Part shown: piece by piece, positions 6,300-7,588 of the stretch | How the letters are laid out: the number at the start of each line of letters is the position of its first letter | Position numbering within the stretch: position 1 is the stretch's first letter | NCBI GenBank assembly: GCA_013003395.1 | Contig: JABDJC010000033.1 | Span: 1 to 51,256, forward strand | Length of the DNA: 51,256 nucleotides | From: Acidimicrobiia bacterium | GTDB taxonomy: Bacteria; Actinomycetota; Acidimicrobiia; Spongiisociales; UBA5794 | Reading direction: 5' to 3' | Position numbers and translations under genes: made by a program | Notes under the pieces: generated by a model | Seen by the model: the letters and a program-made list of their open reading frames with translations, nothing else | Database searches by the model: none | What the model was told of the DNA's origin: nothing

Positions 6300-7382
6300 G
6301 TGGCCAAAGCGCGGTACATGGACTACGTACGAATGGTGCGCGGATTCAACAGTTTCACCAGGATGCTCGAGTGCGATTGCATCAACGGATTCGCTGTGGG
6401 GCTCAAAGTCACCGATTGCGAAGTCACCAACAAGATCTGCATCATCGTGTACGTCAACGAGAAGCTCGACCTGCGCCGGCTACCCATGAGCAATCGGATC
6501 CCCAAAACGCTGCGTATGCCGTCGGAACGGACAAGGGACGGGTATGTGGATCTCATCACCGACGTGCAACAGGCCCGCTTTTCCGCCGTCCAGGTACAAG
6601 AACGGGTCCGACCGGCCCCTGCTGGTGTGAGCGTTGGTCATGTGAACATCACCGCAGGTACGTTCGGGGGTCTCGTGATGGACAAAGCGAGCGGCGCCAC
6701 GGTCATGTTGTCGAACAACCACGTCCTCGCCGACTCGAATTCGGGGGTGATCGGCGATCCGATCATTCAGCCTGGCGCAGCCGACGGTGGCGCGTTCCCA
6801 GCCGATCACATCGCCAACCTCGAACGGTTTGTACCCATAACGTTCGGATCGGGCAACGAAAACCGCGTCGACGCCGCAATCGCCAAGCCACTGGTCCCCG
6901 CCGACGTCATGTGGGAAACCGTCGGCATCGGCCCGATGACGCCATCGAAACGCCGGCACCTGCTTGACGGCGACCTTGGTATCGGCGTCCGCAAGACCGG
7001 TCGGACAACGGGTACGACCGAAGGTTTCGTCCAGGCGCTTCACGGAAGCGTTCAGGTGCAGTATTCGATGTTCAACAAAGCGACGTTCGTCGATCAGATA
7101 ATCATCTCGCAGCCGCTGGACGCTCCGACGTTCTCCGAAGGCGGTGACTCGGGATCGCTCGTGTACGACCTGGACGACAATCTGGTCGGCTTGTTGTTCG
7201 CGGGCTCTCAAGCTTCAGGCAACACTGCGGCGACCACGATCATCAACCCGATCAGCTGCGTATTCGATGAACTCGACGTCGCTCTACTGACCGACGAAGA
7301 AGAGGATCCGTGCGCGGACCGCGAACCAACAATCCCGCAACAGCGTCCGGCCCGCCAAAAACACCAACCAAAGCCGATATGA
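6300..7382 (+). CDS. NAL1-like trypsin-fold serine protease
   Basis: 360 residues from GTG 6300, preceded by AAGGGGGG at good spacing. It has no signal peptide or membrane helix. The first ~100 residues form a small alpha/beta domain ([19 protein letters not shown], then NRIPKTLR) typical of the front of bacterial NAL1-like peptidases. The protease domain follows, with His141 (LSNNHVLAD), Asp191 (VDAAIA) and Ser284 (GGDSGSLV), plus the family motifs KTGRTTG and VGLLFAGS. The family is known mainly from plant NAL1 and from bacterial homologues of unclear substrate. The stop overlaps the start of a 69-codon gene (ATGA), so the two are co-translated. A tail of about 30 charged and proline-rich residues ends the protein. 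Confidence 0.85.
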
Positions 7383-7588
7383 GCGACGAACCGTCAGAGG
7401 TGATCGCCCGTCACCGTGACGAACTGCTCGGCATCGAAGGGGTGAGCGCTGTCGCTTGGGGACTGTCTCCCACCGTCGCCGGTAGAGCGTGCATCCTCGT
7501 CTACGGACTTCCGGGTACACCGGTACCGGAGTCGGTCGAAGGAATCTCGGTCGAACTGGTTCCGACCGAAGGTTTCGCCGCCTACTGA
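7379..7588 (+). CDS. Small protein resembling the protease N-terminal domain
   Basis: 69 residues starting at the ATG that overlaps the protease stop by four bases; the ORF track start at 7310 lies inside the protease gene. The sequence ([13 protein letters not shown], then [10 protein letters not shown], then [14 protein letters not shown]) follows the same order of short strands as residues 29-95 of the upstream protease (NGFAVGLK, then [10 protein letters not shown], then a turn, then [14 protein letters not shown]). I infer a free-standing copy of the N-terminal domain, which could act as an inhibitor, chaperone or regulatory subunit in trans. No family name is assigned; the similarity is from inspection by eye only. 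Confidence 0.65.

Follow-up and report, generated by a model that had tools for sequence, protein, structure and literature searches.

The window analysed here, a stretch of 51,256 nucleotides from an Acidimicrobiia bacterium, carries on its forward strand a protease gene (6300..7382) whose end is overlapped by a 69-aa open reading frame (7379..7588). This layout, including the ATGA at 7379..7382 in which the stop codon of the first gene and the start codon of the second overlap, had been described in an earlier reading made without database searches (the sequence-only reading), and all of it is present. The protease gene opens with GTG at 6300, which is taken as the start because relatives begin at the same point with MAEARFSHYVRLVRGFN.. 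and MAKASYRDYLRLVRGFN.. (M-A-E/K-A), and it encodes 360 aa. The product shows no signal peptide, as the sequence-only reading had stated. The catalytic residues His141 (LSNNHVLA, 6720..6722), Asp191 (RVDAAIA, 6870..6872) and Ser284 (GGDSGSLV, 7149..7151) are each invariant across 60 aligned proteases. The AlphaFold model of the protease (pLDDT 89) matches solved NAL1 in Foldseek at E 7e-18, and the His-Asp-Ser triad together with this trypsin-like fold identifies the product as a NAL1-like serine protease. With the protease family profile, rice NAL1 structures come first, at E 5e-16, followed by S1E proteases such as streptogrisin and alpha-lytic protease, at about 6e-9. Like rice NARROW LEAF 1 (NAL1), the window protein combines a protease fold with an N-terminal domain of Pfam family NAL1_N (PF25608; E 4.8e-7, 29.9 bits, above the gathering score of 27); unlike the rice protein, it scores below the gathering thresholds of Nal1_C (PF25819; 16.6 against 26.1 bits) and Trypsin_2 (PF13365; 21.3 against 27.6 bits). 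This fused, or cis, NAL1_N domain spans residues 6 to 91 approximately (6315..6572) and is modelled as helices at 6-14 and 18-22 followed by strands at 28-38, 41-52 and 82-91, with an additional short strand at 70-74. None of 60 family proteases matched the anti-phage defence models of PADLOC.

The 69-aa protein, whose translation is likely coupled to that of the protease through the ATGA overlap, is a free-standing NAL1_N-like domain. Its AlphaFold model (pLDDT 85) consists of a helix at residues 5-17 and three strands at 22-29, 37-43 and 56-62, and its C-terminus, EGFAAY, fits the family end G-x-[IVFL]-x-A-x. Foldseek returned no solved structure for this model at E<=0.001. Solved NAL1 (8hau_F) was matched with a probability of 0.80 and a TM-score of 0.55, but at E 0.37, and the pro region of alpha-lytic protease (2pro, 3pro, 4pro) with a probability of 0.60 and a TM-score of 0.49, also at E 0.37; the two rank level and are read as a hint only. 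The 69-mer received no name from PHROG, NCBIfam or Pfam and did not match PF25608, and a profile of the free copies searched against PDB sequences gave nothing credible. A single-sequence search with the 69-mer across 60 relatives and 395 genomes of the class returned only itself or noise, so a family profile is required for detection.

The sequence-only reading had likened the small protein to the N-terminal part of the protease by strand order. Pairwise, this likeness is weak, and by eye it lies near chance because BLASTP gives only E 0.082; at family level it holds. An HMM of the N-domain built without window sequences gives the 69-mer 24 bits (single-sequence E 1.4e-9), against 8.3 bits for the best of 5,000 shuffles, and the iterated HMM found no match at E<=1 in 15,794 reversed open reading frames and 1,223 background ones. 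An alignment of seven proteases was too divergent for scanning. When 60 free copies were aligned with 22 fused domains by hhalign, the probability was 99.06 and the E-value 1.7e-18. Pfam NAL1_N itself matches nine of 60 free copies (best E 1.5e-8), and positions 6-83 of a phage-protease profile, phrog_20754, match a free copy from Chloroflexota at E 3e-23. The AlphaFold models of the 69-mer and of the protease N-domain also share their order of helix and strands, in line with the proposed kinship. The 69-mer is a free-standing and diverged copy of the N-terminal domain found in the protease itself.

The gene pair is kept very widely in cells. A survey of 80 cellular loci, the closest of 459 loci found, many of them on metagenome contigs and with start codons set by rule, covered Actinomycetota, Chloroflexota, Calditrichota, Gamma- and Deltaproteobacteria, Chlorobi, Bacteroidota and archaea, among others, and a free copy lies beside the protease in 64 of the 80. 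Fifty-two of these copies are downstream on the same strand, where 20 overlap the protease gene or follow it with zero gap, while six are upstream and six convergent. Plasmids of Rhizobium lusitanum and R. ruizarguesonis carry the free copy in divergent orientation; together with the upstream and convergent cases, this indicates that adjacency outlasts operon order. The remaining 16 loci, about 20% of the cellular proteases, have no neighbouring copy, and at least four of these have less than 900 bases of contig downstream. Shewanella marina, counted among the negatives, has a weak, real-looking free copy that lies downstream of the protease frame at a distance of about 1 kb. Adjacency is also found from the side of the small protein, and the refuting condition named in the sequence-only reading, that its homologues never neighbour a NAL1-like protease, failed decisively: across 50 genomes searched in full, such a protease adjoins 47 of the 48 free copies (a tally made by hand that includes extra pairs elsewhere in these genomes), the lone orphan being in Isoptericola. 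Among 390 genomes of the window's class that were not picked for the protease, all five convincing free copies adjoin one.

No other widely conserved neighbour gene was found at these loci, save an insert at four of them. At L069, L071, L078 and L088, which include Shewanella marina, a third gene sits between protease and free copy; at L069:5866-6810 it is a 315-aa open frame (MKDCKDLCTMQEGITNQILEERN...). The divergent free copy on plasmid p4 of R. ruizarguesonis (L223:2123-2386, minus strand) is unannotated and lies beside WP_168334978.1, near radical SAM and HEXXH peptide-modification genes that also occur at the R. lusitanum locus (L172). On pRlvC of Rhizobium leguminosarum UPM791 (L224), an 81-aa protein, WP_131704930.1, directly follows the protease WP_018516663.1; inspection by eye finds the family pattern in it, at a level that the HMM does not detect, and it is possibly a very divergent copy. 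At L043:4724-4846, an upstream free copy ends at an in-frame TGA after 41 aa, which may reflect decay or a sequencing error.

Viral contigs present a different picture. The same HMM found a free copy at none of 50 viral-contig loci, although it detected the fused N-domain in nearly all of them, and its sole match there (L146) is a 31-residue piece at the start of the protease. The contrast between cells and viruses gives a Fisher P of 3e-22, a value that ignores the kinship of the loci. An individual case is the Aeropyrum coil-shaped virus (L222), an archaeal virus whose NAL1-like protease, CCG27838.1, has a clear NAL1_N domain; no free copy was detected.

By the domain tree, in which deep branching is soft because the domain is short, the free copies appear as an old lineage of their own. 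The nearest relative of 63 of 68 free copies is another free copy, in no case is it the N-domain of the adjoining protease, and 55 free copies fall in one clade with a support of 0.815. The two forms also differ at three charged positions of the fused domain. K36 (6405..6407) is Lys in 97% of cellular fused N-domains, K55 (6462..6464) is Lys in 100% of fused N-domains, and D88 of the T-D-V motif (6561..6563) is Asp in 100% of the cellular ones; conservation of the three is thus 97-100% in cellular and 79-100% in viral fused domains, and the near-invariance is lost at the equivalent positions of the free copies, where they are unconserved. The free copies end just past the domain, in 55 of 68 with the loose pattern G-x-[IVFL]-x-A-[Q/L/R..], and 25 of the 68 finish exactly on AQ. 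Agreement with the tree of the catalytic domain is r 0.71 for the free copy and r 0.68 for the protease's own N-domain, and shared descent feeds into both values; protease and free copy have been inherited together. One protein at L036 (genome G009) has two tandem N-domains and is a natural fusion; it is encoded by one of two adjacent NAL1-like frames, the other of which bears a C-terminal Ser motif, and the two are perhaps a split pair of half-proteases.

The predicted location of the two proteins varies among lineages. A signal peptide or lipobox was called on 29 of 69 free copies by a simple rule of hydrophobicity and lipobox rather than by SignalP, with a lipobox flagged in 13 of the 29, while the neighbouring proteases, by inspection, have neither. 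The predicted signal peptides often begin at the overlap with the protease stop, and the copies predicted to be exported occur in many Gammaproteobacteria, Deltaproteobacteria, Chlorobi and Bacteroidota. The same rule and inspection gave no signal on either protein in the window pair, Chloroflexota, Actinomycetota or archaea. The sequence-only reading had suggested an intracellular pair, and this holds for the window, where both proteins look cytoplasmic, but not as a generality. In a KSB1 genome (G436), a NAL1-like protease (L227:1016-2665) is itself predicted to be a lipoprotein and has a free copy just downstream.

It is very probable that the small protein is a dedicated functional partner of the protease, since the pair recurs in many bacteria and archaea yet is missing beside virus-borne copies. 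Whether that partner is specifically an inhibitor or antidote is, in our estimate, close to an even bet. Our main reading, to which we give a probability of roughly 0.5, is by analogy with stand-alone propeptide-like inhibitors: the locus would be a module in which a free homologue of the N-domain binds the protease in trans and restrains it. In the steps that we infer, the free copy would contact the protease, or a protease oligomer, directly; would hold it in check by inhibition rather than help it to fold; and would engage the active site, or a region close to it, with its sheet of three strands and the conserved tail at its C-terminus, G-x-[IVFL]-x-A-[QL]. In diderms with an exported free copy, it may shield the cell envelope from protease acting or released there. 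The pro region of alpha-lytic protease puts its C-terminal tail in the active site. Its level ranking with NAL1 in Foldseek and the relation of the catalytic domain to S1E favour restraint of the protease, and the proteases without a neighbouring copy, the Isoptericola orphan and the weakness of the Foldseek matches count against it. The predicted export sits poorly with direct contact, unless the protease gets to the envelope by another route. A trans-acting regulator of the split-propeptide type, as the sequence-only reading had proposed, is now the leading reading on the strength of the homology and the kept pair, but the choice among inhibitor, adaptor and chaperone lies beyond sequence.

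Several other roles can be weighed against the same observations. The free copy could be an assembly subunit or adaptor that replaces the cis N-domain in an oligomer or docks onto it, setting the oligomeric state or recruiting substrates without inhibition. It shares the fold of the cis domain, the loss of the K36, K55 and D88 charges would suit a subunit that occupies the N-domain site without touching the catalytic domain, and many NAL1 entries in the PDB contain six chains of one sequence; its absence beside viral-contig homologues with the same fused domain, and its predicted export in many lineages, leave this role rather unlikely. Export is what would be expected if the fused and free domains shared a ligand or peptide and the free copy served as a sensor or decoy that never contacts the protease and, in diderms, works extracellularly, since the proteases lack the signal that the 29 free copies carry. 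We consider such a role doubtful, because the free copy is cytoplasmic in Actinomycetota, Chloroflexota, archaea and the window, and because a sensor without contact would not need such tight linkage. An envelope module resembling an effector and its immunity protein is a tentative idea to which we give similarly low credence. The protease, having no signal peptide, would get to the envelope or leave the cell through lysis, in vesicles or via a secretion machine, and the exported propeptide-like lipoprotein would protect the producer; monoderms, the window's host among them, would have the module in cytoplasmic form, and viruses would carry the protease alone.

Alpha-lytic protease needs its pro region to fold, as S1E relatives of the catalytic domain do, and the 69-mer weakly resembles the fold of that region; the free copy might therefore be an intermolecular chaperone that catalyses the folding step of the protease and can be dispensed with afterwards. 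This we hold to be improbable, because no free copy accompanies the viral-contig homologues, which share the fused N-domain, and exported copies would be unable to fold a cytoplasmic protease. A foldase would be expected in resident and viral genomes alike, and an inhibitor or antidote best explains a gene that is kept in the first and not in the second. That the free copy is simply the natural substrate of the protease would agree with its adjacency, its export in some lineages and its conserved C-terminus, but homology to the protease itself is unexpected of a mere substrate, and this reading is very improbable. Scarcely any credence is left for the idea that part of the protease gene was duplicated recently and that the free copy is its non-functional remnant. 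The loci that lack a copy and the shortened copy at L043 are what such decay might leave, but free copies have their own signal peptides and a conserved C-terminus, and for the family the tree refutes recent duplication, as the copies form an old lineage with none nearest its own protease.

Pairs of this general kind are known. SUB1-ProM, a free-standing homologue of the pro-domain of the Plasmodium subtilase SUB1, is a potent inhibitor, and it resembles the present case as a stand-alone homologue of an N-terminal pro-domain encoded at a conserved locus next to subtilase genes (PMC6993865). It differs in its subtilisin fold, its I9-type pro-domain and its eukaryotic host, and it is characterized by biochemistry, whereas our account is built on genes and models; the NAL1_N domain is not known to be removed by cleavage. 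In the SpeB-Spi, Staphopain-Staphostatin and Bacteroides C10 pairs, a small inhibitor gene adjoins the protease gene, upstream or downstream, and is co-transcribed with it, and export is predicted for the Bacteroides inhibitors, some of which would be lipoproteins (PMC3462683). Those proteases, however, are papain-fold cysteine proteases with signal peptides of their own, and the staphostatin-type inhibitors are not homologous to their protease (PMC3462683). The alpha-lytic pro region is likewise a small alpha/beta fold that partners a protease related to the window's catalytic domain, but it has two domains, lies in the same chain as its protease and matches the 69-mer at E 0.37 with no sequence match. 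Trypco1 and Trypco2, the trypsin-co-occurring domains of bacterial conflict systems, are also small proteins encoded beside trypsin-like proteases, but in ternary NTP-dependent systems rather than a two-gene pair (PMC7159879), and a Pfam scan of 60 free copies gave no Trypco match at E<=0.1. A separate observation concerns a plasmid of Streptomyces canus (NZ_CP109336.1; L221), on which a NAL1-like protease, WP_326673403.1, forms one protein with a DNA/RNA non-specific endonuclease, and a patatin-like protein is encoded close by; such fusions are annotated in Tsukamurella and Rhizobium plasmids too, and the Streptomyces one resembles NucA-trypsin conflict systems (PMC7159879).

In the literature searched, we found no paper on bacterial NAL1-like proteases or on the pair, and no description of a free-standing N-domain copy with plant NAL1; Pfam, NCBIfam, PHROG and the same literature gave no family name or annotation for the free-standing partner or the pair. 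Both genes of the Rubrobacter radiotolerans pair, WP_051590075.1 and WP_041339327.1, are annotated 'hypothetical protein', and in most records checked prokaryotic NAL1 relatives carry no annotation beyond 'hypothetical'. As far as our tools reach, a protease with a free-standing pro-like domain is thus a known kind of arrangement, and its occurrence in the NAL1 family, its fold and its taxonomic breadth are new.

If the effector-immunity idea were true, bacterial NAL1-like proteases would form a new class, either a regulated weapon that works by proteolysis or a system for self-digestion, and the antidote would have evolved out of the N-terminal domain of the very weapon it counters. An antidote for resident genomes fits the 0 of 50 viral loci with a free copy better than an obligatory foldase does, and, going by the contrast between cells and viruses, the partner should be of consequence only for a resident protease. 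The fused-versus-free signature at K36, K55 and D88 marks residues to mutate. NAL1 is a yield gene of rice, and a cognate partner conserved across bacteria and archaea would offer a first handle on the control of NAL1-like proteases, in the form of a small and testable regulator.
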